In this document: positions 44,592 to 57,828 of the stretch, in pieces
Position numbering within the stretch: position 1 is the first letter of the stretch
Layout of the letters: every line of letters begins with the position of its first letter
Source of the DNA: Deltaproteobacteria bacterium
Lineage (GTDB): Bacteria; Desulfobacterota; Desulfobacteria; Desulfobacterales; Desulfobacteraceae
Direction: 5' to 3'
NCBI GenBank assembly: GCA_013151635.1
Contig: JAADHV010000054.1
Span: forward strand, 1-64,000
Length of the DNA: 64,000 nt
Made by a program: the position numbers and the translations under genes
The notes under the pieces: generated by a model
What the model saw: only the letters and a program-made list of their open reading frames with translations
The model's database searches: none
What the model was told of the DNA's origin: nothing

Positions 44592-46730
44592 ATGTTGGAT
44601 AAAGTGCTCAATGCAAGATCTGTTGCCATAATAGGGGCTTCTAAAAATAAGACAAAACGGGGATACCAGGCCATTAACACCCTTAGGGCCGATGGATATG
44701 AAGGAGAAATTTATCCTGTAAATCCAAAAGAAGACATGATTTTAGGGCTTCACTGCTATAAGGATATTACTGAGATTAAATCCCCTGTTGATCTTGCTTT
44801 AATTACAACCCCTGCAAGGACCATCCCCGGGATCTTAAGAAAATGCGGTGAGAAAAAAGTTGCCGGTGCCATTATCATTGCCGGCGGTTTCAGGGAGCTT
44901 GGTGACAGGGGGAAAGAATTGGAGCGGGAAGTTGTTGCTGCTGCAAAAGAAACCGGTGTCAGGTTGATCGGGCCCAATACCTCCGGCATGATAAACCTTA
45001 AAACCAATATGAACCTTGTGGGAATAAAAAATCCTCCAAAAGGCAACATTGCATTGCTCTGCCAGAGCGGCAATATGGCATTAACTCTCATTACGGAAGC
45101 TACAGTCTGCAAACACGAAGGGTTTACCTATTATGTAGGTGTGGGCAACGAGTCGGATATCAAGTTCCATGAGTACCTTGAATTTTTTAAAAATGATCCT
45201 GATACAAAATCCATTCTCATGTATGTCGAAGGAATGAGCCAGGGGAGGAAATTTCTCCAGGAAGCCTATGAAACAAGTACAAAAAAGCCGATAATTCTTT
45301 TAAAAAGCGGCAGGTCTGCTGCGGGTAAAAAATCGGCAGGTTCCCATACAGGATCACTTGCCGGGATAGGCGAAGTTGCAAAACGGGCGTATGAACGAGC
45401 TGGTATAATTGTAATTGAAAACTCAGATGAACTTTTCCCGGTAGCAGAGACCCTCTCAAGCCAGCCCCCGATAAAAAATAATTCCATTGCTATCCTTGCA
45501 GATGGAGGGGGGCATGCCACCATAGCCGCAGATCTTTTAACAGACTATGGCATAAATCTTCCTGAACTGTCTGACAAAACAAAAGAAAAACTAAGTAAAA
45601 TTCTGCCGGAAGCTGCGTCCTTAGTAAATCCTGTTGATGTAGCGGGCGGGACAGATGCCGATCCCAGCCTTTTTGCAGATTGTGCAAGGATTATTTTAAA
45701 GGATCCCAATGTAGGAGGTCTTCTGGTTGTCGGCCTTTTCGGTGGATACGGCATCCGGTTTGAAAAGAGCCTTGCTATTGGGGAAGAAGCGGCAGCCCAT
45801 AGGTTCGGGGCAATGGTAAAAAAGAAAAATAAACCTATTTTTGTGCATTCCCTTTATAGCTCACAAAAGTCCCATGCACTTGATCTGTTGCGCCATTATG
45901 ATATACCGGTTCATGATTCCCTGGATATTTCATGCAAATGTGTGGCCTCACTTTGCAAGTATGGAAACTACCTTAAATCCTATCATGCCAAGACCAATTT
46001 TGTTTTTAACTGGGGAGCCAGGGCAAAAAAAGAAGGCCGGGATATCATTGAAAATGTTAGGAAAGAAGGCCGTTCAGCGCTTTTGGAACATGAAGCAAAA
46101 CAATTGATAAAACTGCACGGTGCCCCTACATCTGTGGGGCAGGTGGCAAAAACCCAGGAGGAGGCATGGCAGATTGCAAAAAATATAAAAGAGAATGTTG
46201 TATTAAAGATTGTTTCACCGGATATCCTGCATAAAAGCGATGCCTGCGGTGTTAAATTGAACCTGAGTTCTGAAAAAGAAATTATAAAAGGGTTCCAACA
46301 GATTATAAAGAGCGCAAAAATCTATAATCCAAAAGCTGACATCCGGGGTGTCCTTGTCGCGCCAATGGCGCAGAAGGGCCTTGAAATTATTATCGGAACC
46401 AAGATAGATGAGCAGTTCGGTCCTGTTATCATGTACGGGCTTGGCGGCATCATGGTTGAAATCATGAAGGATGTGACATTCTGGGTTTTGCCTGTTTCCT
46501 CCACATCTTCAAGAAAAATGCTGAGAGACACCCACTCTTCCATCCTTTTAGACGGCGTAAGGGGGCAGAAGGCTTATGATAAAAGATCATTAAGAAAGCT
46601 TATATCAATGTGTTCTGAACTGATTGAATCCTATCCTGAAATTGAAGAAATGGATCTTAATCCTGTCATCCTTTATGAACAGGGGCTGGATGTAGTGGAT
46701 GCCAGAATAATACTTAAAGATCAGGAGTAA
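44592..46730 (+). CDS. Acyl-CoA synthetase, ADP-forming (acetate-CoA ligase family)
   Basis: This 712-residue single-chain enzyme has the CoA-binding Rossmann domain (VAIIGASKNKTKRG), the two ligase domains with the phosphohistidine region SAGSHTGSLAG, and a C-terminal ATP-grasp domain (KIVSPDILHKSDACGVKL; GLGGIMVEIMKD; EMDLNPVILYE). It makes acyl-CoA from acid, CoA and ATP with release of ADP and phosphate. Families of this type use acetate, propionate, phenylacetate and others; the acid here is unknown. It is the second gene of the sigma54 operon. Confidence 0.93.
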   Translation: MLDKVLNARSVAIIGASKNKTKRGYQAINTLRADGYEGEIYPVNPKEDMILGLHCYKDITEIKSPVDLALITTPARTIPGILRKCGEKKVAGAIIIAGGFRELGDRGKELEREVVAAAKETGVRLIGPNTSGMINLKTNMNLVGIKNPPKGNIALLCQSGNMALTLITEATVCKHEGFTYYVGVGNESDIKFHEYLEFFKNDPDTKSILMYVEGMSQGRKFLQEAYETSTKKPIILLKSGRSAAGKKSAGSHTGSLAGIGEVAKRAYERAGIIVIENSDELFPVAETLSSQPPIKNNSIAILADGGGHATIAADLLTDYGINLPELSDKTKEKLSKILPEAASLVNPVDVAGGTDADPSLFADCARIILKDPNVGGLLVVGLFGGYGIRFEKSLAIGEEAAAHRFGAMVKKKNKPIFVHSLYSSQKSHALDLLRHYDIPVHDSLDISCKCVASLCKYGNYLKSYHAKTNFVFNWGARAKKEGRDIIENVRKEGRSALLEHEAKQLIKLHGAPTSVGQVAKTQEEAWQIAKNIKENVVLKIVSPDILHKSDACGVKLNLSSEKEIIKGFQQIIKSAKIYNPKADIRGVLVAPMAQKGLEIIIGTKIDEQFGPVIMYGLGGIMVEIMKDVTFWVLPVSSTSSRKMLRDTHSSILLDGVRGQKAYDKRSLRKLISMCSELIESYPEIEEMDLNPVILYEQGLDVVDARIILKDQE

Positions 46731-46825
46731 GGATGGATTAATTATTTAAGAAGAAAGGAGGATAAAAGAAAAAGGAAAATTTTATTATCAAAATAGTTTT
46801 TTAACACTTAAATTGGGAGGTAAAG

Positions 46826-47809
46826 ATGAAAAAAGCAATAGTTTTAACCACTGCACTATTATTCGGCCTGGTTCTTTTTATAGGTTCCACCACGACTCAA
46901 GCCCAGGCAAAAACAACTTTTGTGACCATTGGAACAGGTGGAATTACAGGGGTTTACTATCCGACCGGCGGTGCCATTGCCAAGATCGTCAATAAAAAGA
47001 GAAAAGAATACGGCATTCGCTGCACAGTTGAATCAACCGGTGGATCTGTTTTTAATATCAATGCAGTTCTGGCAGGAGACCTTGATTTTGGTATTGCCCA
47101 GTCGGATCGCCAGTACCAGGCGGTAAAAGGAATAGCCGACTGGAAAGATAAAGGACCTCAAAAAGATCTCAGGGCTGTATTTTCCATCCACGCGGAAACA
47201 GTTGACCTTATTGCGGCTGTGGATGCAAACATTAACAGTATTGCCGACCTTAAGGGCAAAAGGGTTAACATTGGAAACATTGGCTCAGGATACCGCCAGA
47301 ATGCCATTGATGCGCTTGAGGCCAATGGCCTGAACTGGAAAACAGATTTTCACGCTGAAAGTTTAAAAGCTGCCGAAGCCCCGGGGCTTATCCAGGACAA
47401 CAGGATTGATGCGGCCTTCTATACAGTGGGGCACCCTTCAGGATACTACAAGGAAGCTACTTCAGGAACCCGCAAGGTAAAATTTATTCCCATTTTAAAT
47501 ATTGACGGTCTCTTGGCAAAATATCCCTATTATGCAAGGGCTGCAACTTTGATGAAAAATTATCCGGGTGCTGCAAACACTGAAGAATCAATTCCAACAT
47601 TTGGTGTAAAAGCAACTTTTGTCACATCAGCCAAAGTACCGGATAAGATTGTTTATGCAATCACAAAAGAAGTGTTTGATAATTTTGAAGCATTTAAAAA
47701 ACTTCATCCTGCCTATGCCGGCCTTACCAAAAAATCCATGCTGACCGGCCTTTCAGCTCCGTTCCATCCTGGCGCAATGAAGTACTACAAAGAAGTAGGT
47801 CTGAAATAG
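46826..47809 (+). CDS. TAXI-family TRAP transporter solute-binding protein
   Basis: This 327-residue periplasmic receptor has a Sec signal peptide (MKKAIVLTTALLF..., cleavage about AQA). The mature start TTFVTIGTGGITGVYYPTGG and the later GRVNIG-type KGKRVNIGNIGSGYRQNA define the TAXI subgroup of TRAP receptors. It delivers an organic acid or amino acid to the permease encoded next. GGGAGG precedes the ATG. It lies 95 nt after the synthetase gene. Confidence 0.94.
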   Translation: MKKAIVLTTALLFGLVLFIGSTTTQAQAKTTFVTIGTGGITGVYYPTGGAIAKIVNKKRKEYGIRCTVESTGGSVFNINAVLAGDLDFGIAQSDRQYQAVKGIADWKDKGPQKDLRAVFSIHAETVDLIAAVDANINSIADLKGKRVNIGNIGSGYRQNAIDALEANGLNWKTDFHAESLKAAEAPGLIQDNRIDAAFYTVGHPSGYYKEATSGTRKVKFIPILNIDGLLAKYPYYARAATLMKNYPGAANTEESIPTFGVKATFVTSAKVPDKIVYAITKEVFDNFEAFKKLHPAYAGLTKKSMLTGLSAPFHPGAMKYYKEVGLK

Positions 47810-47841
47810 TTAAATTGTTTTAAACTGCTTTAAATGTATTG

Positions 47842-47882
47842 GCAGTGGAAAAGACGTGTGATTGACATGCCTTTTTCACTGC
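47842..47882 (+). other. Intercistronic hairpin in the TRAP operon
   Basis: GCAGTGGAAAAG (47842-47853) pairs with CTTTTTCACTGC (47871-47882) with one mismatch, with a CGTG/CATG pairing inside the loop. It sits between receptor and permease genes; such hairpins commonly protect the upstream receptor mRNA and make the receptor more abundant than the permease. Confidence 0.55.
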
Positions 47883-47904
47883 TGTTCTCAATTGGGTGAA
47901 AATT

Positions 47905-49995
47905 ATGAGCGATACTGAAGTTCAGGAAATAGACGATGGTTTAGAACTTGCCAGGAAACTGGCAGAGGAAGAAGAAGGAATATCAAGAAAACCTTTAGGG
48001 TTTGAGAAATGGGTGATTCCAACTATTGCAGTTACCTGGAGTTTGTTCCAGCTGTCCATAGCAAGCTGGCTGATACTTGACTCTACTTATATCCGGGCAA
48101 TCCATCTTGGATTTGCATTCTTGATTGTTTTTTTAAGTTACCCTTTTTTCAAGGAAAAAAGACTGGGGTTGGATTTTTTATCCGCAACAGACAGGATTCC
48201 TGTTTTCGATTATGTTATCGCCATTGTTGCATGCCTTTCAGCTCTTTATCTTGTGCTTGATTTTAAAGGTATAACGACACGGTATGGTGCACCGATTTCA
48301 AGGGATATTGTCATTGGCCTCATTTTGACGGTACTGCTTCTTGAGGCAGCCAGAAGAGTGATAGGACCGGCACTTACCATCATTGCCATGGTATTTTGTG
48401 CTTATGCCTTTTTCGGGCCCTATATGCCGGACTTTATCGCCTTCAAAGGAGTGTCTTTAAACCGGTTTGTCGGGCAAATGACCATGTCTACAGAAGGCAT
48501 TTATGGTATTCCCCTTGATGTTTCGGCAACCATTGTTTTTTTGTTCGTGCTTTTCGGTGCCATGCTGGATAAGGCAGGGGCCGGTCATTATTTTATCCAG
48601 CTTGCTTTAAGTCTCCTGGGCGGATTCAAGGGCGGCCCTGCAAAGGCTGCCGTGCTTGGAAGCGGGCTTACCGGAATGGTCTCAGGTTCCAGTATTGCAA
48701 ATATTGTAACCACCGGAACATTTACAATACCCATGATGAAGAAGGTCGGTTACCCGGCCACCAAGGCAGCTGCGGTCGAGGTGGCTGCAAGTACGGACGG
48801 GCAGTTGGCACCGCCCATTATGGGGGCTGCTGCGTTTATTATTGCGGAATATGTAAACGTTCCCTATGTAGCGGTGATCAAGGCTGCTGCTATCCCGGCC
48901 TTTGCCTCCTATGCCGCATTGTTTTACATTACCCACATTGAAGCATCCAAACTGGGTTTAAGGGGAATACCGAGAAACGAACTCCCTGTTTTTTTTAAAA
49001 CCCTTTTAAGCGGGCTTCATTATATGATCCCCATTTCATTGCTGCTTTATGAACTGGTTGTGGTCCGACACTCTCCTGAACTTGCCGCATTCCATGCCAT
49101 CTGGCTGATGGCTCTTGTTATGATGGTTCAGGAACCGGTCAAGGCATATATAGCCAAAAAACCCATTGTTCCTGCAATAAAAAAGGCAGTTGTTGATATT
49201 TTTTCAGCCCTTGCATCAGGGGCACGCAACATGGTGGCCGTAGCTCTTGCAACAGCCGCTGCCGGTATTATTGTCGGTGTTGTGGCCCTGGGGCTTGGCG
49301 GACTTATTACAGAAATCATTGATGTTATCTCCATGGGCAATGTATATCTCATGCTGATCATCACTGCCATTGCAAGCCTGATAATCGGGATGGGTCTGCC
49401 TACAACAGCAACTTATATTGTCATGGCTTCCTTGACAGCCCCTGCAATTGTGACCATTGCAGGTAATCAGGACTGGTTTGTTCCGTTAATGTCAGCTCAC
49501 CTGTTCTGCTTTTATTTCGGAATTCTTGCCGATGATACACCGCCTGTGGGACTTGCGGCTTATGCTGCTGCTGCCATTGCAAAGTCTCCGCCCATTGCCA
49601 CCGGGATACAGGGATTCATGTATGATATCAGAACGGCAATCCTGCCTTTCATGTTCATCTTTAATTCTGACCTGATCCTGTACCATATTACATCCTGGCC
49701 CCAGGGCATCCTTATTTTTGTTATGGCGTGTATCGGCAATTTTGCCTTTGCATCGGCAACCCAGGGGTGGTTTGTGGCAAAGAACAGAATATGGGAAATA
49801 CCTTTGTTTTTAAGTGTCACAATTCTGGCCATGAGACCGGATGCTATTGCATCCCTGGTTGGACTGCCCCATGATCAGCGGTATTATATTTACCTTATTG
49901 CGCTTATCCTTTTTGGTATCATTTATTTGATGCAAAGACCGAGGATTCCCCAGGAAGAGGGCAAGACGGCCAAAGAAGTGTTTGGCAATTTTTAA
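47905..49995 (+). CDS. TRAP transporter fused permease (4TM-12TM)
   Basis: This 696-residue integral membrane protein fuses the small (DctQ-like) and large (DctM-like) TRAP subunits, as in TAXI systems. The large-subunit parts include GSSIANIVTTGTFTIPMM, VEVAASTDGQLAPPIMGAAAF and GMGLPTTATYIVMASLTAPA. It couples substrate entry to Na+ or H+. ATG 47905 is preferred over GTG 47896 because GGGTGA lies just before it. Its partner is the TAXI receptor upstream; a Usp gene follows after 15 nt. Confidence 0.94.
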   Translation: MSDTEVQEIDDGLELARKLAEEEEGISRKPLGFEKWVIPTIAVTWSLFQLSIASWLILDSTYIRAIHLGFAFLIVFLSYPFFKEKRLGLDFLSATDRIPVFDYVIAIVACLSALYLVLDFKGITTRYGAPISRDIVIGLILTVLLLEAARRVIGPALTIIAMVFCAYAFFGPYMPDFIAFKGVSLNRFVGQMTMSTEGIYGIPLDVSATIVFLFVLFGAMLDKAGAGHYFIQLALSLLGGFKGGPAKAAVLGSGLTGMVSGSSIANIVTTGTFTIPMMKKVGYPATKAAAVEVAASTDGQLAPPIMGAAAFIIAEYVNVPYVAVIKAAAIPAFASYAALFYITHIEASKLGLRGIPRNELPVFFKTLLSGLHYMIPISLLLYELVVVRHSPELAAFHAIWLMALVMMVQEPVKAYIAKKPIVPAIKKAVVDIFSALASGARNMVAVALATAAAGIIVGVVALGLGGLITEIIDVISMGNVYLMLIITAIASLIIGMGLPTTATYIVMASLTAPAIVTIAGNQDWFVPLMSAHLFCFYFGILADDTPPVGLAAYAAAAIAKSPPIATGIQGFMYDIRTAILPFMFIFNSDLILYHITSWPQGILIFVMACIGNFAFASATQGWFVAKNRIWEIPLFLSVTILAMRPDAIASLVGLPHDQRYYIYLIALILFGIIYLMQRPRIPQEEGKTAKEVFGNF

Positions 49996-50010
49996 TAAAG
50001 GAGAAACCCA

Positions 50011-50502
50011 TTGGATAATATTAAAAAAATTCTTGTTCCCCTTGCATTTACCGATTATTCACAAGGTGTCTTTAACTGTGCCGTGCAGGTCGCGTTAACA
50101 AATGATGCAGATATTATTGTTTTAAGCATCATTAATTCAAGGGATATTGAATCTGTGAAAACCATTGTTTCCATGGGATATGATGTTGATGCGGAACACT
50201 ATGTTGAAGAAATCCGTAAAGACAGGAAACAAAAGCTTAATAAAATGGCTAAGACAGCTAAAATTGACAAGGACAAGGTTAAAATTCTGTTCAAGGTTGG
50301 AAGACCGGTTGATGAGATATTAAAAACCATCAGCAAAGAAGCACCTGACCTGGTTGTCATGGGGACAAGGGGGCGAGCCAACCTGAAAAACAGTATCATG
50401 GGTGCCGTTGCAGGGAAAGTTTTTAAAAGATCGCCTGTTGATATCCTGTCCTACAGGGATAAAGATGTTAAAAAAAATCTTGAAAAAAAGCTCCATTTAT
50501 AA
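50011..50502 (+). CDS. Universal stress protein UspA, single domain
   Basis: This 163-residue cytoplasmic UspA protein shows IKKILVPLAFTDYS, VLFKVGRPVDEIL and the nucleotide-binding loop VVMGTRGRANLKNSIMGAVAGKVF. The start is TTG with AAAGGAG seven bases upstream. Usp genes directly after TRAP permeases are common, and such Usp proteins may regulate the transporter by ATP binding (known for TeaD of the TeaABC transporter). It ends the sigma54 operon before a terminator. Confidence 0.93.
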   Translation: MDNIKKILVPLAFTDYSQGVFNCAVQVALTNDADIIVLSIINSRDIESVKTIVSMGYDVDAEHYVEEIRKDRKQKLNKMAKTAKIDKDKVKILFKVGRPVDEILKTISKEAPDLVVMGTRGRANLKNSIMGAVAGKVFKRSPVDILSYRDKDVKKNLEKKLHL

Positions 50503-50522
50503 CCCTGGATTTTTTTTAAAAG

Positions 50523-50562
50523 AACCGCATTTAAAGACCTTTACAGGTATTTAAATGCGGTT
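50523..50562. terminator. Long bidirectional terminator
   Basis: AACCGCATTTAAA (50523-50535) pairs perfectly with TTTAAATGCGGTT (50550-50562), with ACCT/AGGT extending the stem in the loop; T-rich bases follow on both strands. It separates the convergent Usp gene and the FGase-like gene. Confidence 0.8.
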
Positions 50563-50565
50563 TGC

Positions 50566-51390
50566 TCATTTTATCAAATGCCTGGCATGGGATAAAACAG
50601 CTTTTTCAAGGCCGGTTTTGAGAGCCTTAACCACATCCGGGTACAGGATACCTTTTTTTTCGTCCATATATGCCTTGGATATTTCAGTGGGAAGAACAAG
50701 AATACGTTCGTCCATACTGGAAATCTGTCTGCAAAATTCAGCCTTGCCGTAAAATACAAGGTTTTCTGCCACGGTTGTTTCCACGCCTGGCAATGATATG
50801 TCACCAAGCAGTTCCAGCCACAATTCAATGGCTTCTTTCCATTTTAATGTGTTAAGAAGTTTTGTTCCAAGATTAAATACCGGCGGGAATTTGATCCCCT
50901 TGGCCTTCTGGCGTGAAATATTATAGGAATGAATGTCATAAACAATGCAGATGCCAAATCGATCCAGCATTCCAGTGACGTATTTTTTAATAAACCTGTA
51001 AAAGGATTCATGGCTCTCAAGGCTTTTTTGATTCATTCCAGGGTCCGGCATGGTTTTGTACACCCTGGTACCCCAGAATTTTTCCTTTGTAAGTGGCAGC
51101 GCCATGTCCTTTGAACGGTTAAGATCATAAACAGCCCTGGATTCAAGCGCCCATGCCGCATTGCCAAGACCCTTTATCAAAAGATCAGTACCGGTATCTT
51201 CTTCAAACCGGCGCTGGCCGGAATCAAGGGCCATTAGAGGCTTTAATTCTTTTCGAACATGATGCCCGGCATGTATGGCAACGGCAATATAAGGAAGGGA
51301 AAAATCAAAATGATATGCAAACCCTTTTAATGGGTCAGTCCCCCGGATACCAATATCCTGTTGTGTTCTTTTATTTTTCATCGTTGACAT
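50566..51390 (-). CDS. N-formylglutamate amidohydrolase-like protein (FGase/HutG family)
   Basis: This 274-residue protein resembles the FGase family of zinc amidohydrolases, an M14-like peptidase fold. Seen are IAVAIHAGHHVRKEL with a histidine pair, RFEEDTGTD, SRAVYDLNRS and VYDIHSYN, matching the conserved catalytic and substrate-binding segments. It removes an acyl group or hydrolyses a glutamyl amide, but the setting is not histidine degradation: no other hut gene is present. It is the last gene of a CapA-racemase-ATP-grasp-FGase unit, starting 2 nt after the ATP-grasp gene. Confidence 0.85.
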   Translation of the reverse strand: MSTMKNKRTQQDIGIRGTDPLKGFAYHFDFSLPYIAVAIHAGHHVRKELKPLMALDSGQRRFEEDTGTDLLIKGLGNAAWALESRAVYDLNRSKDMALPLTKEKFWGTRVYKTMPDPGMNQKSLESHESFYRFIKKYVTGMLDRFGICIVYDIHSYNISRQKAKGIKFPPVFNLGTKLLNTLKWKEAIELWLELLGDISLPGVETTVAENLVFYGKAEFCRQISSMDERILVLPTEISKAYMDEKKGILYPDVVKALKTGLEKAVLSHARHLIK

Positions 51391-51392
51391 TA

Positions 51393-52379
51393 TTAAAGAT
51401 TGTAACGGGCCAGGGCGGAACTTACAATATGGTTGATGAGGTTTTGATATGCTTTCATGGGACCTTTGGGAGCCGGATAATACATGGAAAATATCTGGGG
51501 GCTCCAGCTTTTACCGGGCTTTAAGCCGGGGATACCGTTGACCTCAATGATTTTTAACTTTCCATTGGCATCCATGCGCATGTCAGTTCTCACATGGTCC
51601 AGGCAGTTCAAAGCCTCCATGGCCTGCCGGCAAAGTTCTATGAGATCTTCTTCTTTTGTTGAAACACGTTTTATTTTTGTTGCCCCAACTCCCCTTAAAT
51701 CACTTCTCAGGATGGGATATTTGCCGAACAAGGAAGGGTCCACCATAACCTTGCCCGGTAGAAACACCTGGTGTTTGCCGTTTCCAAGCATTAAAACAGT
51801 ATATTCCGACCCGGGAAGATATTCTTCCACCAGGGCCGGCTGGTCAAAATTACTTTCAATAAAGGCTATTCTTTTCTTTAAATCTTCTTTTGAATGGACC
51901 ACGCTGTCATCACTTATGCCAACAGACCTTGATTCAAAGCTTGGTTTGACAAAAGCCGGGTAAACAAGGTCGGGAAGGTTATCCGCAGTTCCAAGCTGGT
52001 AATGGTAGGGAACCAGAACGCCCTTGTCTTTTAATATCCTGTGGGTGCAGGTTTTATTTATCAATTGTTTCATGGTTTTTGAATCCGGCCCGATGCAGGG
52101 GATGCCTTTTTCATCAAAAATATCTGCAACCCATTTTTCATGGGTTTCGCCCATGCCGACAGCATCTGCTTTGCCGGAAATATGATAAAGCGCACTCCAG
52201 GCTATATCAAATGAGTTTTTTTCAATGGCAGATAAAAATTCATCCATATTATTAACAAAGGCGATCCTGGCACTTTTCCCGGAATCATTAATTGCTTTTT
52301 GAATGCTTTTTGTAACCTTGATATCTCCCCAGCCCTGGGCATCACCTGCCGGGCCTGTAACCAATAATATTTTTTTCAT
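51393..52379 (-). CDS. ATP-grasp carboxylate-amine ligase, D-Ala-D-Ala ligase-like
   Basis: This 328-residue enzyme has an ATP-grasp fold with an N-terminal VTGPAGDAQGWGDIKV segment, ATP-binding YPAFVKPSFESRSVGI, EEYLPGSEYTV and the metal/ligand-binding end IIEVNGIPGLKPG. It joins a carboxylate to an amine with ATP hydrolysis. It is too diverged from Ddl to be called the cell-wall enzyme. Its neighbours (racemase-like, FGase-like, CapA-like) suggest that it forms an amide of glutamate or a similar amino acid. Same strand, spacing 2 nt to the FGase-like gene and 41 nt after the racemase-like gene. Confidence 0.88.
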   Translation of the reverse strand: MKKILLVTGPAGDAQGWGDIKVTKSIQKAINDSGKSARIAFVNNMDEFLSAIEKNSFDIAWSALYHISGKADAVGMGETHEKWVADIFDEKGIPCIGPDSKTMKQLINKTCTHRILKDKGVLVPYHYQLGTADNLPDLVYPAFVKPSFESRSVGISDDSVVHSKEDLKKRIAFIESNFDQPALVEEYLPGSEYTVLMLGNGKHQVFLPGKVMVDPSLFGKYPILRSDLRGVGATKIKRVSTKEEDLIELCRQAMEALNCLDHVRTDMRMDANGKLKIIEVNGIPGLKPGKSWSPQIFSMYYPAPKGPMKAYQNLINHIVSSALARYNL

Positions 52380-52420
52380 TGAACATAATACCTTTTAATA
52401 TGCAAGTTTAAAAATTCTGT

Positions 52421-53338
52421 TTAAATATCAAACAGGTCCGCCTTCCATTCATAGCGGGCCAGGGCTTTGACAGCTAAAGGCGAAACACCTTTTAAAAGTT
52501 TTGTATAAGCATCAATTCTTGCAGGTTCCAGGCAGACCCTTGATACGACCCTGGTTTTAATAACAGGAGAAGAAATATTTTTCTCTGCCTGGCCTTCGAA
52601 TACCTGATCTGCCATCTTTTCATTGGGATTAAGAATTATAACCTCTCCGTTCACTTTTTTTGATAAAGCTTTTTGAAAAATATCCCTGCTATAGCCAAAA
52701 TGGGTACAAAAAAGTGCTGCAAAAATTTTCCCCGTGGACATGCGCATATTTGAAACAGCTGTTGAAACGTTTGCATGAATCATTTTTGCCACACTGCCGT
52801 CAAAGGGATTTCTCTCGATTTTACCTGCAAGATCCGTGCAACCCTGGCCTGTAATCCGGCCGGGATCAATGCCCATTTTCGATAGTTTTTTTTGATGGGT
52901 TTTTTCAGCAATGGTTGTGGGAGTGCCAAATATTATGGCCTGACTGTCCTTGTCTGCCATAAGGCTTTCATGAATCATTTGAACGCCGTGATCCACAATT
53001 CCAAAAACCCTTGTCCCCGCATCACGGCTGAACCGGGTAAAAGGGTAAATCACGGAAAGGGTGTTGCATGCAATGAGAATCATGTCCGGCTTGAACCGGG
53101 CCATGGCATTCAATGCATTGTTAAAGACCCGGGCTTTTTGATCCATGGTTTTAAAATGATTATATCCCCTTTCTTTTGTTGGCCAGGCATTAAAATAAAT
53201 CATTGAAACATCCTGCCAGGGTGATTTTTTAAAAACCAGGTTTGCAATTCTGGCAAACACGGACATGCCGCCAAGCCCTGAATCGGTTACCAGGATGGTT
53301 TTCCCGGACCTGTTGGATTTATTGTTTGAAAATGTCAT
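52421..53338 (-). CDS. Glutamate/aspartate racemase-like protein
   Basis: This 305-residue protein follows the MurI plan: DSGLGGMSV near the N-terminus (catalytic Asp region), first catalytic cysteine in IACNTLS and second cysteine in FCTHFGY. Thus both cysteines for racemisation are present. It is 35-40 residues longer than normal MurI. It may provide D-glutamate or a related D-amino acid to the ATP-grasp ligase next to it. The alternative is a normal MurI for peptidoglycan, but the operon setting does not suggest this. Confidence 0.85.
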   Translation of the reverse strand: MTFSNNKSNRSGKTILVTDSGLGGMSVFARIANLVFKKSPWQDVSMIYFNAWPTKERGYNHFKTMDQKARVFNNALNAMARFKPDMILIACNTLSVIYPFTRFSRDAGTRVFGIVDHGVQMIHESLMADKDSQAIIFGTPTTIAEKTHQKKLSKMGIDPGRITGQGCTDLAGKIERNPFDGSVAKMIHANVSTAVSNMRMSTGKIFAALFCTHFGYSRDIFQKALSKKVNGEVIILNPNEKMADQVFEGQAEKNISSPVIKTRVVSRVCLEPARIDAYTKLLKGVSPLAVKALARYEWKADLFDI

Positions 53339-53343
53339 GCAAT

Positions 53344-54600
53344 TTATCCTTTGCAGCCGGGGTCATCAATTTTACAGGTCAGCCAGAGTTCAACCAGAGC
53401 CTTTGACCACCTGGGGGGAGTCTCAAGTTTTCCGTCCACCATATGTGTAAGAAAATCCTTCCAGTGATGAAGATGCTGCAAAGTGGTCAACCGGTTGCGG
53501 AACATTGCAGCCCCTTTTTCAGGTTCAATTTTCATCTTTTCCATTATCATGGATATTTCATTAAAAAATCCTTTTACCCCATAGTAGTGAAGAAAGCCAT
53601 GCCATGCTTCATAAATTTTCTTATTGTCATCAAGGGGCAGTGAAATTTTTTTTAATATATCCAGAAAAGATTTAAGTTCCGGATTTTTTAAAAGGGACAA
53701 TCCGTGGTCACAAATTTTATACGGGATAAGTTTGAGGGATAAAAGGCGGTCTTTGTTTAATTCAAGACCCACAAGATATCCGAGCTTCCGGTACATAAGG
53801 TCGGTTTCCTGGTAAAACGCAAAATTTCCCAGGCTGTAGCATATGGGAACCTGGTTATAAAATTGAATGCCCTGGGGAACATGGGGGTGGTGGCCGATAA
53901 CAACATCGGCACCCGCATCTGCCATTTTTTTAAAAGCTTTTACAACATAAGGGGGTGGAAAAGGAATATACTCAATGCCGCAATGGGAAACAACAATGAT
54001 AATATCAGTTTCCTGCCTGAGTGATTTAATTGTATCTTCAATCCTTCCAAGATCCCAGCCCATGACACCGGGCCCTTCTTTAGCCGACGTAAGATCTTCT
54101 CCCTCGCTGAAATTGACAATGGCAATCCTGATGCCATTTACGTCCGTCACAAGGGGGGCAAAGGCTCCTTTTTCGGACATGCCCGCACCTGTCCTTTTAA
54201 TATTATTCCGGTCCAGAACATCCAGGGTATCTTTAAATGCTTCAATACCGTAGTCAAGCACGTGGTTGTTTGCAAGGGTTGCGATATCAAATGGAACAGC
54301 AGTCAAAGCTTTTACGTAACATGATTCACCCTTGAATACAGAGCCGCTTTTAAATACGGGCGTCCCCCTGTCGCTTAACGGGGATTCAAGGTTTACAACA
54401 GACAGGTCAAAAGTCCTTAAAACGGGCAGGAGATCGCCATATAGTGATGTGGGGTCGGTAACCATGATATTTTTAAAAGCCCTTATGGGAGCAAGATCAC
54501 CTGCAATGCATACAGTTGCAGTGTTTTTTTTTGAATGCCTGGCTTTTGTGCCGGCTGTCCAGGAGCCTTGCTTCCAGTTAAAAGACGATATTGTAGGCAT
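53344..54600 (-). CDS. CapA-family protein (PGA capsule-like metallophosphatase fold)
   Basis: This 418-residue protein has the CapA/PGA_cap pattern VCIAGDLAPI, VVNLESPLSDRG, TLANNHVLDYG, VVSHCGIEYIPFPP and VIGHHPHVPQG, the metal-binding set of calcineurin-like phosphatases. CapA is known from poly-gamma-glutamate capsule synthesis. Unlike classical CapA it has no clear membrane helix at the N-terminus, and no CapB or CapC is present. AGGA lies nine bases before the ATG. It is the first gene of the four-gene unit and precedes the racemase-like gene by 5 nt. Confidence 0.9.
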   Translation of the reverse strand: MPTISSFNWKQGSWTAGTKARHSKKNTATVCIAGDLAPIRAFKNIMVTDPTSLYGDLLPVLRTFDLSVVNLESPLSDRGTPVFKSGSVFKGESCYVKALTAVPFDIATLANNHVLDYGIEAFKDTLDVLDRNNIKRTGAGMSEKGAFAPLVTDVNGIRIAIVNFSEGEDLTSAKEGPGVMGWDLGRIEDTIKSLRQETDIIIVVSHCGIEYIPFPPPYVVKAFKKMADAGADVVIGHHPHVPQGIQFYNQVPICYSLGNFAFYQETDLMYRKLGYLVGLELNKDRLLSLKLIPYKICDHGLSLLKNPELKSFLDILKKISLPLDDNKKIYEAWHGFLHYYGVKGFFNEISMIMEKMKIEPEKGAAMFRNRLTTLQHLHHWKDFLTHMVDGKLETPPRWSKALVELWLTCKIDDPGCKG

Positions 54601-54822: not shown

Positions 54823-55980
54823 ATGAATATGGCGAGTCGTATTATTCTAATTATTGCAGCATTGTTATTGACCATGTCGGGGTATGCTTTTGGATCGGAC
54901 ATAGCCATTGGCATGTCTTTGTCTCTTACCGGCAGATATGCTGAGATGGGTAACATGCAGCAAAAAGGACTTTTCCTCTGGGAAAAGCATGTCAATGAAA
55001 AAGGCGGTATCCTGGGTAGAAATGTCAAAATTATCATCATGGATGATAAGAGTTCTAAAGAGCGGGCAAAAAATATTTATAAGAGGCTGATTGAAAAAGA
55101 TAAAGTGGATTTTGTTATTGGCCCATATTCCAGCGGGATATCAGAAGCCATATTGCCTGTGACTGAAAAGAACCGGTACCCTGTACTTTTGTCCGGGGCC
55201 TCTGCCGACCGGCTTTGGGAAAAAGGATATCGCTATGCATTTGGAATTTATACACCTGCCAGCAAATATACGTCAGGGTTCCTGCAGATGCTTGTTAAAC
55301 AAAAGATAGAAAATATTGCCATTATATCGGCTGAGGACACTTTTTCTGTTTCACTTTCAAAGGGCACCAGGAAATGGGCTCAAAGGTTCAAATTGAATGT
55401 GGCCTGTTTTCAGGTATTTAAAAAGGGCCAAAAACATCTTGCCGACATTGCATTGCGGGCAAAGGAATCAGGCTCACAGGCTGTTATTGTCTGCGGCCAC
55501 CTGAATGAGTCTGTTGATATGCGGCTGGCTTTAAAAAAGATCGGATGGTATCCCGAGGCATATTATGCCTCTGTGGGACCGGCCACCCGGCAGTTTTACA
55601 ATATTTTAAAGGATGATTCAAATCTTACATTCTCTTCGTCCCAATGGGAAGAATCGGTCGGTATAAGGTTCCCGCAAGGAGAAGAGTTCATCAAGGCATT
55701 TCATAAATATTATAAGATATCTCCTTCATATCACGCAGCAACGGCTTATGCCGCCGGCATGATACTTGAAGCAGCCCTGGAAAAAAGCGGATCACTGGAT
55801 AAGGAAGATCTTCGGGAAACACTTTTCAGCCTGGATACCATGACAGTAATCGGCAGATACGGAGTGGATAAAAAGGGAAAACAAAAACGCCATTTCCCAC
55901 TTATTATTCAATGGCAGAACAAAAAGAAAAATGTGGTATGGCCGGATAGTTTGAAAGAGCTTGATCCGGTATTTCAATAG
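54823..55980 (+). CDS. Periplasmic substrate-binding protein (Peripla_BP_6), sensor-associated
   Basis: This 385-residue protein has a Sec signal peptide (about 1-23, cleavage near AFG) and a type I binding fold of the branched-chain amino acid/amide class (IAIGMSLSLTGRYAEMG; NEKGGILGRNVKIIIMDDKS; FVIGPYSSGIS). AAGGAAG precedes the ATG. No ABC permease is nearby; a membrane histidine kinase starts 6 nt downstream. So it probably presents a ligand to that kinase, as in the operon at 762-3817. Ligand unknown. Confidence 0.88.
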   Translation: MNMASRIILIIAALLLTMSGYAFGSDIAIGMSLSLTGRYAEMGNMQQKGLFLWEKHVNEKGGILGRNVKIIIMDDKSSKERAKNIYKRLIEKDKVDFVIGPYSSGISEAILPVTEKNRYPVLLSGASADRLWEKGYRYAFGIYTPASKYTSGFLQMLVKQKIENIAIISAEDTFSVSLSKGTRKWAQRFKLNVACFQVFKKGQKHLADIALRAKESGSQAVIVCGHLNESVDMRLALKKIGWYPEAYYASVGPATRQFYNILKDDSNLTFSSSQWEESVGIRFPQGEEFIKAFHKYYKISPSYHAATAYAAGMILEAALEKSGSLDKEDLRETLFSLDTMTVIGRYGVDKKGKQKRHFPLIIQWQNKKKNVVWPDSLKELDPVFQ

Positions 55981-55986
55981 GAGAGA

Positions 55987-57828
55987 ATGTTACAAAGACA
56001 AAGAAAAAGCCTGACTTTACGGATTGCATTTCCTGTCGTCATCTTGATATTACTTCTCGGGGTGATGCTGGACAGGTTTGTCTTAAACGTTATTTCCGAT
56101 TTTACAAAAGAGCAGATTCAGCGGGACCTCGGGTCTATTTCAAGAATAATCAATAATATATGCGATATTAATTTTGAAAATTTATTAATGGAAGGCAAGG
56201 CTGATGACAGGCAGGCGCTTACAATCGAACAGGGCCTGGTTCTGGGACAGGTGGAGGATTTACTTGTCCAGGAAGATTTGCTTGGCATTGTCTATGATAA
56301 AAATTTAAAAAAAATACTTTTAAAAACCGATCTGCCATTGGAGCCTGTGAAATGGATGGACCCGGGAAAGGGCATTAAAGGTTTGAAATCTCTTGGGGAA
56401 AATGCCGGAGGATGGTTTGCCTTTTATGAGGAATTTTCGCCCTGGGGCTGGCAGATTATTATTTTGAAAAATGAAATAGAGTATTCATCTTTAAAAACAA
56501 GGCTGAATAAGGTATATCTGAATACCCTGCTGATTTTGATTTTTGCTTCTGCCCTGCTGATCTTTTTTATTCACCAAACAATTAAAAAGCCTGTAAACAC
56601 AATCATCCAAGCGTTAAGGAAGGGGAAAAGACCAAATTATCAAGGCATATATGTCTTTGAATTTTTGAGCGATTCCATTACCGGAATGATGGATTCAATA
56701 AAGAAAAGTGAGGAAAAATACCGTTCCATTATTGAAACTGCAACCGGTTTTGTATGGGAGGTGGATAAAAAAGGGAATTATACCTTTATCAGTGAAACAG
56801 TTAAAAATATCCTTGGCTATGATCCAAAAGAGCTTTTGGGGAAATCTGCGTTTTTCACCATGCCAGAGAAGGAAATTGATCGGATGTCACCTGTATTCAG
56901 GAAAAATGCATTATGCTTAAAACCTTTTGAAAATCTGGTAAATAAAAACCTGAATAAACAGGGAAGAACAGTTTTCCTTGAAACAAGAGGGGTTCCCATC
57001 ATCGCCGAGGATGGCAGGCTTTCCGGTTATAGGGGTGTTAATAAAGACATTACCCTCCAGCTTATTGCCAAAAAAGAGCATAAGGAACTTGAACGTCATC
57101 GCCATCAACTCCAGAAAATGGAGGCAATTGGAACCCTGGCCGCAGGCATTGCCCATGATTTTAATAATTTGCTGTTCATTATCATGGGCAATGTTTCTTT
57201 ATCTAAAGTTGGGATTGAAAAAGGCCTGCCTGTGATAAAATATTTAAAACAGGCAGAAGCCGCCTCTGCCAGGGCAGGAGAACTGGCAAACGAATTGATT
57301 ACGCTTTCCAAGGGTGGTATGCCTATCCTAACTGTTGGTTCGATAAAAAATCTGCTCGCTGAAACAGCAGGTTCGATCATTAAAGATGTTAACGTAAAAC
57401 TTTTATTGCAGATACAAGAAAATCTTTTAACGGTTGAATATGATGAAATCCAGATGAAACAGGTTTTTATAAATATTATCACTAACGCGCTTGAATCTAT
57501 GCCCAATGGGGGCCTGATAACCATTGATGCACAAAATCTGTGGAAAAGGGATCATACAGACAAGGTTGAATCGTCTCTGCCTGAAAAAATATATGTTAAA
57601 ATCACATTCAAAGATCAGGGACGAGGGATTGAAAGACAACATCTTGAGAATATATTTGACCCCTATTTCACAACCAGGGAAATGGGAACAAAAAGAGGTG
57701 CCGGCCTGGGTCTGGCAGTGGTTTATTCTATTGTTTCCCACCATGATGGCAGAATCAGTGTAAGCTCGGAACCTGGTTGCGGTACAATGATCACCCTTTA
57801 TATCCCTGCCTGTGAAAAATCCATATGA
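55987..57828 (+). CDS. Membrane histidine kinase (PAS-HisKA-HATPase), partner of a binding protein
   Basis: This 613-residue kinase has two membrane helices (about 14-33 and 178-196) around a small periplasmic domain, then PAS (about 240-355), an NtrB-like H-box (GTLAAGIAHDFNNLLFII) and HATPase (DQGRGI; GAGLGLAVV). The H-box class matches the 25330 hybrid kinase. AGGAG precedes the ATG. No receiver domain is attached and no response regulator follows directly; the nearest is the sigma54 activator at 63243. It probably senses through the binding protein encoded 6 nt upstream. Confidence 0.9.
   Translation: MLQRQRKSLTLRIAFPVVILILLLGVMLDRFVLNVISDFTKEQIQRDLGSISRIINNICDINFENLLMEGKADDRQALTIEQGLVLGQVEDLLVQEDLLGIVYDKNLKKILLKTDLPLEPVKWMDPGKGIKGLKSLGENAGGWFAFYEEFSPWGWQIIILKNEIEYSSLKTRLNKVYLNTLLILIFASALLIFFIHQTIKKPVNTIIQALRKGKRPNYQGIYVFEFLSDSITGMMDSIKKSEEKYRSIIETATGFVWEVDKKGNYTFISETVKNILGYDPKELLGKSAFFTMPEKEIDRMSPVFRKNALCLKPFENLVNKNLNKQGRTVFLETRGVPIIAEDGRLSGYRGVNKDITLQLIAKKEHKELERHRHQLQKMEAIGTLAAGIAHDFNNLLFIIMGNVSLSKVGIEKGLPVIKYLKQAEAASARAGELANELITLSKGGMPILTVGSIKNLLAETAGSIIKDVNVKLLLQIQENLLTVEYDEIQMKQVFINIITNALESMPNGGLITIDAQNLWKRDHTDKVESSLPEKIYVKITFKDQGRGIERQHLENIFDPYFTTREMGTKRGAGLGLAVVYSIVSHHDGRISVSSEPGCGTMITLYIPACEKSI

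Follow-up and report, generated by a model that had tools for sequence, protein, structure and literature searches.

Several individually described enzymes resemble members of the gene unit considered here. According to PMC10406935, the lasso-peptide epimerase MslH inverts a peptide alpha carbon using two His/Asp dyads and Ca. The strict D-amino-acid transaminase (DAAT) of H. hydrossis, according to PMC8401098, carries the signature RxxxxFD[YF] and xxR...SPDGxTP and is highly active on D-Ala plus 2-oxoglutarate and on D-Glu plus pyruvate. The superfamily of the glutamate racemase MurI can also act on a residue of a peptide, as exemplified by OpaE (PMC12661438). The window, i.e. the whole stretch of 64,000 nucleotides that was analysed (contig JAADHV010000054.1 of assembly GCA_013151635.1, Deltaproteobacteria bacterium), contains a cassette of four genes in which a CapA protein, a MurI-like racemase and a Ddl-type ATP-grasp ligase, hereafter the core, are followed by a hydrolase of the FGase family. 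These are known enzyme families in a hitherto undescribed combination: no single matching system is known to us, and the combination was not found described in the literature searched (open-licence PMC text only). The bearers of the gene set, relatives included, are probably sulfate-reducing bacteria, judging from the taxon name. The features of the locus are as follows.

53344..54600, minus strand: CapA/PGA_cap protein, 418 amino acids; Pfam PGA_cap 216.3 bits (cut-off 27)
52421..53338, minus strand: divergent glutamate-racemase-like (MurI-like) protein, 305 amino acids; TIGR00067 52.3 bits
51393..52379, minus strand: Ddl-type ATP-grasp amide ligase, 328 amino acids; Dala_Dala_lig_C 74.9 bits (cut-off 24)
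50566..51390, minus strand: FGase (N-formylglutamate amidohydrolase family) hydrolase, 274 amino acids; Pfam FGase 53.8 bits (cut-off 28.9)
50518..50562, minus strand: terminator-like hairpin, 13 + 4 pair stem and short U-rich tail, located where the FGase and Usp genes converge

The core and its partners in related genomes

The ATP-grasp ligase was found in 31 of the 291 genomes of the class sample, the window's included, and when the regions of all 31 were read, CapA, racemase and ligase genes lay side by side in 27. A chance neighbourhood is thus rejected, as the core is conserved side by side in other genomes. The initial annotation would have been refuted had the genes failed to co-occur elsewhere, and these loci show that they do co-occur. 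It is very likely that the four genes belong to one functional unit. With the racemase protein as query, matches were obtained in 15 of 291 genomes of the order and in 4 of 395 genomes of the phylum; in the phylum sample the ATP-grasp search gave the same four genomes, among them the window's, at 57% identity at least, and two further distant matches at 33-34%. Among the 15 racemase genomes of the order, 13 have CapA, 11 have an adjacent CapA and a full ligase, and two (G089 and G076) have neither. A scan of genome contigs with the racemase alone as query gave 2 loci.

Pairwise distances over the 27 loci correlate between the three core proteins (r 0.86-0.90); these loci include G717, whose ligase was read as two overlapping frames, and G670 (L073). 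Genus g55 departs in gene order, its three genomes (L028, L031, L032) having racemase-ligase-CapA. The core is present twice in G748 and G749: one copy stands behind DAAT without an alanine racemase gene (Alr), as read in both genomes, and the copy with Alr was read directly in G749 and deduced in G748 from matches on one contig. The four ligase genomes not counted among the 27 are G038 and G093, which are described further below, G684, whose contig breaks off 185 bases short of the ligase, and G218, whose cassette is divided between two contigs and includes an additional, truncated ligase (L027 7907-10631, Alr-CapA-racemase and the truncated ligase; L079 422-3507, DAAT, the intact ligase and FGase). 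Since the genomes are samples, many of them in hundreds of contigs, absences have to be considered soft. In PLSDB no plasmid matched the ligase, the racemase or CapA at 60% identity or above.

Clustering of the neighbouring genes revealed a class IV aminotransferase (DAAT) and Alr directly upstream of the core. Both are found in 18 of the 27 loci, Alr alone in 2 and neither in 7, the window being among the latter; the lack in G670 is uninformative, because only 523 bases of its contig precede CapA. All six genes are present in G625, which belongs to a different family within the phylum, and DAAT and Alr lie directly before the core there as well. The operon-type DAAT of the relatives (58% identity or more; G673 and G687, at 51-52%, were left out) keeps the signature residues of the group II enzyme of H. 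hydrossis: R27, F32, D33, F34, R90, S98, D100 and P104 are invariant in the 12 sequences aligned of 21 found, and P99 and G101 vary. The window's own genome, by contrast, has no DAAT match at E 1e-40. The operon Alr is the only alr above cut-off in 8 of the 14 genomes tested (G275, G680, G703, G692, G669, G218, G065 and G139); G625 has two, and in the window's genome (G000), G713, G700, G051 and G552 a single alr lies elsewhere. Beside the sequences of the window and its genome, the alignments used here comprised 29 of 36 racemases, 33 of 35 ligases, 30 of 34 CapA proteins, 12 of 21 DAATs, 14 of 23 Alrs and 12 of 12 FGases.

Of the 27 loci, 10 have an intact FGase gene next to the core, one has a partial copy and 16 have none; FGase is for this reason an accessory member, rather than the integral hydrolase of the pathway that had been proposed from the window. 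The proposal of a conserved D-amino-acid system fared better: because DAAT and Alr belong to the unit in most relatives, D-amino acid chemistry is better supported than could be seen from the window, and its involvement is likely. The neighbour clusters showed no transporter that recurs from lineage to lineage: TRAP genes were met in 7 loci, almost all belonging to the window's clade, and the gene for a TauE-like membrane protein in 8 loci of a different group. An intracellular product is therefore favoured. In 10 loci of one group (L084 12027-13867 and nine others) DAAT is preceded by the gene of a methyltransferase that scores below the cut-off of the DVU_1556 family. In L031 (8729-9409) a 227-amino-acid protein with no Pfam or NCBIfam match lies directly before the racemase, and a large synthase-like open reading frame (ORF) is found downstream.

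The cassette proteins and their described relatives

MslH is the nearest solved relative of CapA both in sequence (PDB profile search, E 1e-22) and in fold, being the best Foldseek match (E 9e-23, TM score 0.61) of a model predicted with a pLDDT of 91.4. CapA residues H113/D116 and H240/D35 correspond to the MslH dyads His88/Asp91 and His295/Asp11 and are invariant in the 31 sequences aligned; D35 was placed via the NF038314 profile offset and the other dyad residues via a HMMER alignment. Three of the four metal ligands are also conserved, Glu44, Asn87 and His259 of MslH corresponding to E72, N112 and H206. On the other hand, CapA scores 79.5 bits against an NF038314 cut-off of 700, and no lasso-peptide genes were recognised nearby. 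No signal peptide was recognised by eye, nor is a membrane anchor visible. The conserved residues suggest that CapA is probably a metal-dependent acid/base enzyme; that it is an epimerase is a rather doubtful proposition. Family and fold of the fourth gene product are confirmed, as the FGase model (pLDDT 88.5) has 2q7s as best Foldseek match (E 1.6e-11, TM score 0.74), and no hut genes were recognised beside it.

The racemase-like protein falls below both curated cut-offs (Pfam Asp_Glu_race, 23.3 vs. 31 bits; TIGR00067, 52.3 vs. 146.65 bits, E 5e-14), and is therefore a divergent relative. Its profile A1, in which the genome's own MurI is one of 31 rows, matches solved MurI structures with a best E of 1e-26. 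Residues D19, S20, G21, G23 and G24, C91, N92 and T93, and C211, T212 and H213 are invariant in 30 divergent racemases, counting the window's and two from outside any cassette (L033 and L034), and in the genome's own MurI; the DSGxGG, CNT and CTH motifs are thus kept together with both catalytic cysteines, as had been read from the window's protein. The differences from MurI lie in the length (305 vs. 264 amino acids in the genome's own MurI, L002, which scores 216.9 bits with TIGR00067), in the PYG loop, presumably the substrate loop that holds the side chain, for which the 30 divergent racemases have a longer W-P-x-x-x-R-G-Y-N-like stretch, and in CTHYP, which becomes CTHFGY-like. As the loop is rebuilt while the motif blocks are invariant, the protein would fit glutamate or a side-chain derivative of it, and it probably accepts glutamate.

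Racemases of this superfamily were also met in other surroundings. In L033 (754-9782) a partnerless cassette-type racemase lies between a regulator and, as judged by eye, genes of an Opp-type peptide transporter and an M20-like peptidase. In L034 (9337-12151) a distant racemase (31%) stands ahead of a RimK-like ATP-grasp protein and a protein weakly like CoA pyrophosphatase. In the window's genome, an Asp/Glu racemase stands beside a D-cysteine desulfhydrase-like enzyme, recognised by eye (L001 417-2166, G000:C42).

The ligase is the most conserved of the core proteins, with a mean column identity of 70% as compared to 60% for CapA and 48% for the racemase. In the PDB profile search it matches VanA and Ddl, with VanA as the best (E 8e-20), and it shares with them the ATP-grasp domain, in which R264, D266, E279 and N281 are invariant in 34 sequences and align with residues of the genome's own Ddl. 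The N-terminal substrate domain is instead a different one: most matches to Ddl begin at residues 78-88 (exceptions being one that begins at 40 and three at 133), the SER motif, which we take to be the first D-Ala site, is absent from all 4 cassette ligases that were compared with this Ddl, an invariant Q15-G-W-G18 being found in its place, and TSLFPQ is changed to KSWSPQ. Considering this N-terminal domain and the change to KSWSPQ, an amide formed from partners other than those of Ddl is to be expected. A separate canonical Ddl was found over cut-off in 14 of the 14 cassette genomes tested, and the cassette ligase is therefore an extra enzyme. That it makes a small D-amino-acid amide appears somewhat probable.

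Distant relatives of the ligase occur elsewhere. On pNGR234a of Sinorhizobium fredii NGR234 an ATP-grasp gene (29%) lies near a CapA-family gene (26-36%, in pieces), the closest such pairing that was found, but no racemase, DAAT, Alr or FGase is listed there, the PLSDB annotation being incomplete. L162 (8525-12164) and L163 (8258-11869) contain tandem Ddl-like ATP-grasp stretches with a protein that by eye resembles lysine 2,3-aminomutase, L162 also a GNAT-like gene; a beta-lysine amide pathway is possible for the two loci.

D-glutamate supply and the candidate pathway

The window's genome has a canonical MurI of its own (G000:C82), and the cassette racemase is thus rejected as the sole MurI of that genome. 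The initial annotation had named this as a point on which its proposal could fall, and for the window's genome it does not; among relatives the same point retains force, since no canonical MurI was detected in 28 of the 35 genomes of the family with a cassette-type racemase, and the racemase may for this reason have a cell-wall role there. Among 86 genomes of the family, canonical MurI was found in 36 and the cassette-type racemase in 35, with 7 genomes having both, 28 only the cassette-type protein, 29 only MurI and 22 neither. This tendency towards mutual exclusion corresponds to an odds ratio of 0.19 (p 0.0008, shared ancestry ignored), and in the 26 genomes of the window's genus the respective numbers are 1, 7, 14 and 4 (p 0.003, shared ancestry likewise ignored). 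The 50 of 86 genomes without a MurI match above cut-off raise the question of how this family makes D-glutamate.

In these counts a cassette-type racemase is an open frame of about 290-365 amino acids scoring 40-77 bits with TIGR00067. Its neighbours were checked in 25 of the 35 genomes; three more (G729, G730 and G750) have CapA and DAAT-Alr next to each other on one contig, and seven stand in the table with no neighbour check (G702, G731, G734, G738, G741, G743 and G744), three of them in the genus table. L157 of G748 was counted as cassette-type, though it has no cassette partners. Weak Asp/Glu-racemase matches (23-36 bits) are present in 7 of the 28 genomes without canonical MurI, and such matches occur also in G713 and G700.

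Much of the exclusion is accounted for by the operon-type DAAT, which is present in 19 of 23 genomes at least 95% complete and without MurI. When DAAT was held constant in genomes of at least that completeness, the exclusion was no longer significant (odds ratio 0.58, p 0.68, n=28; 0.25, p 0.43, n=17). The table of the family had first suggested that the racemase simply replaces MurI; this loss of significance speaks against it, and so does G129. This genome, a single contig rated 100% complete, has no MurI match and keeps DAAT and Alr intact beside a scar (L143 10008-10457) in which CapA residues 1-36 are followed by a CapA stretch that begins near residue 91 and continues into the final 28 residues of the ligase; no racemase match was found in the 16 kb read around the scar. 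The core, racemase included, is therefore dispensable there. Similarly, G257 (truncated CapA) and G715 (CapA only) lack a MurI match, and no racemase adjoins their DAAT-Alr pair. In G192 (97% complete), canonical MurI, cassette-type racemase and DAAT are all missing, and some others of the 22 genomes also lack the operon-type DAAT; either such absences are soft or another source of D-Glu exists.

On the established gene order, conservation, family membership and conserved catalytic residues, a pathway can be drawn. In its full six-gene form it would comprise DAAT, Alr, CapA, the MurI-like racemase, the Ddl-type ligase and FGase, the window representing one version. Alr would make D-Ala, and DAAT would turn D-Ala and 2-oxoglutarate into D-Glu; the racemase would invert glutamate or a close acidic derivative, and the ATP-grasp enzyme would join a D-amino acid by an amide bond, giving a small amide or dipeptide. 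On this product CapA might perform metal-dependent acid/base chemistry, possibly an alpha-carbon inversion as in MslH, and FGase, where present, would hydrolyse an amide of the product or of a precursor. The window's genome presumably obtains its D-Ala and D-Glu through the alr and murI genes located elsewhere, which may be the reason why only the core and FGase are clustered there; in genomes that lost MurI, the racemase may in addition supply peptidoglycan, as a backup of MurI. We tentatively favour, at a little under even chances, a modular accessory pathway that draws on D-Glu and D-Ala and yields a small amide or dipeptide of D-amino acids. It would point to an undescribed D-amino-acid metabolite in probable sulfate reducers, with a defined gene set, testable enzymes and natural deletions at hand. 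A bolder version, which we regard as unlikely though not negligibly so, has the six genes make a small soluble D-Glu/D-Ala amide or dipeptide new to bacteria by means of two stereo-inverting enzymes, with the racemase as the only MurI of some lineages and DAAT replacing MurI in others. If true, an accessory-metabolite operon would have absorbed the D-amino-acid supply of the cell wall.

Several observations weigh against the accessory pathway. We infer the substrates, the product and the direction of flux of the cassette. In G038 the ligase lies on another contig than CapA-racemase, and in G093, which is not among the 15 racemase genomes of the order, it is alone; CapA stands alone behind DAAT-Alr in G715, and cassette-type racemases are also solitary (L033, L034, and L157 in G748). 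Neither in the window's clade nor in genus g55 does the core adjoin DAAT or Alr, and DAAT-Alr occurs without the core in G092, G252, G697, G747 and G035, so that the two parts can separate. As for CapA, the fourth metal ligand of MslH, His261, corresponds to Gly208, and since the dyad residues are common to metallophosphoesterases the protein could be a phosphoesterase, which makes the epimerase a guess. Finally, the ATP-grasp relatives in L162, L163 and rhizobia indicate that this type of ligase serves other pathways.

An operon serving mainly to supply peptidoglycan with D-amino acids, in which the racemase is a non-orthologous replacement of MurI and CapA, ligase and FGase are incidental or act in salvage, is improbable, about as much so as the bolder six-gene version. 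It would explain the exclusion seen in the family and in the window's genus, and it gains from G692 and G669, genomes of one and two contigs with no other TIGR00067 match, and from six of the seven cassette-only genomes of the window's genus (G670, G700, G713, G731, G734 and G738), which show no canonical MurI and no match to a class IV transaminase at E 1e-40 and in which the cassette racemase may therefore serve the wall, even if three are just 68-81% complete (94, 90, 96, 81, 81 and 68%, respectively). Yet it leaves the ligase and CapA without a role, the p values ignore shared ancestry and lose significance within DAAT strata, the window's genome and six others carry both racemases, and G129, complete and devoid of MurI, lost the core and kept DAAT and Alr, the situation in G257 and G715 being similar. 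The van clusters likewise pair a racemase, a ligase and a peptidase, and a comparable remodelling of stem peptides, with the ligase making D-Ala-D-X for peptidoglycan ends and FGase trimming the normal ends, would agree with VanA as best match of the ligase profile and with the weak matches of the FGase model to M14 carboxypeptidases. We consider it quite unlikely, given the late start of most Ddl matches, the missing SER motif, the FGase absent from or partial in most core loci, and the fact that inspection of the recurrent neighbour clusters by eye revealed no cell-wall gene.

Hardly more can be said for a salvage route, whose chances are equally low, in which FGase would cleave D-amino-acid peptides from wall debris and the racemases and DAAT would feed the residues back into the L pool. 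In its favour are the reversibility of DAAT and Alr, a TAXI-type TRAP transporter adjoining the window's cassette, and the L033 racemase (37-38%), which precedes what by eye are Opp-type transporter and M20-type peptidase genes; but the most conserved core protein is an ATP-consuming ligase, and the transporters fail to recur across lineages. The D-Glu polymer resembling poly-gamma-glutamate, which the initial annotation put forward beside an osmolyte or a small peptide, is very unlikely: the CapA family and the D-Glu supply in relatives would suit it, but no CapB/CapC-type gene was recognised among the neighbours by eye, no profile search having been made, CapA is without visible anchor, and the ligase is of Ddl type and not of Mur-ligase type.

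The window locus and its neighbours

The coordinates and Pfam matches agree with the four-gene cassette and the families first assigned to it, with intergenic gaps of 5, 41 and 2 nucleotides in the order CapA/racemase/ATP-grasp/FGase, and all four ORFs are intact. That no CapB/CapC, hut or mur genes accompany them holds for the inspected neighbours (5 by Pfam, the rest by eye; the genome was not profile-searched). Comparison with three relatives gave ratios of non-synonymous to synonymous substitution (dN/dS) of 0.12-0.24 across the four genes, the synonymous sites being close to saturation (dS 1.0-1.7), and gene decay is therefore not supported. There is likewise no sign of a foreign island, as the G+C content, overall and at third codon positions (GC3), of the four genes is inside the range of the neighbours.

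The hairpin 3' of FGase has a folding energy of -22.5 kcal/mol (positions 50508-50568 folded; z -8.3, with 0 of 200 shuffles equally stable). A pattern scan of the unit gave 13 promoter-like sites, as compared to a shuffle mean of 9.8 (standard deviation 3.0), and 10 terminator-like sites, as compared to 5.6 (standard deviation 2.4); the hairpin is not among the latter, presumably because a mismatch interrupts its stem. Convergent with the cassette, positions 44592-50502 contain genes for an NDP-forming-type CoA ligase, the TRAP transporter and Usp, of which Usp and TRAP recur beside the cassette in the closest relatives of the window. On the other side and divergent from it, at 54823-57828, an amino-acid-type binding protein is followed by a PAS histidine kinase.

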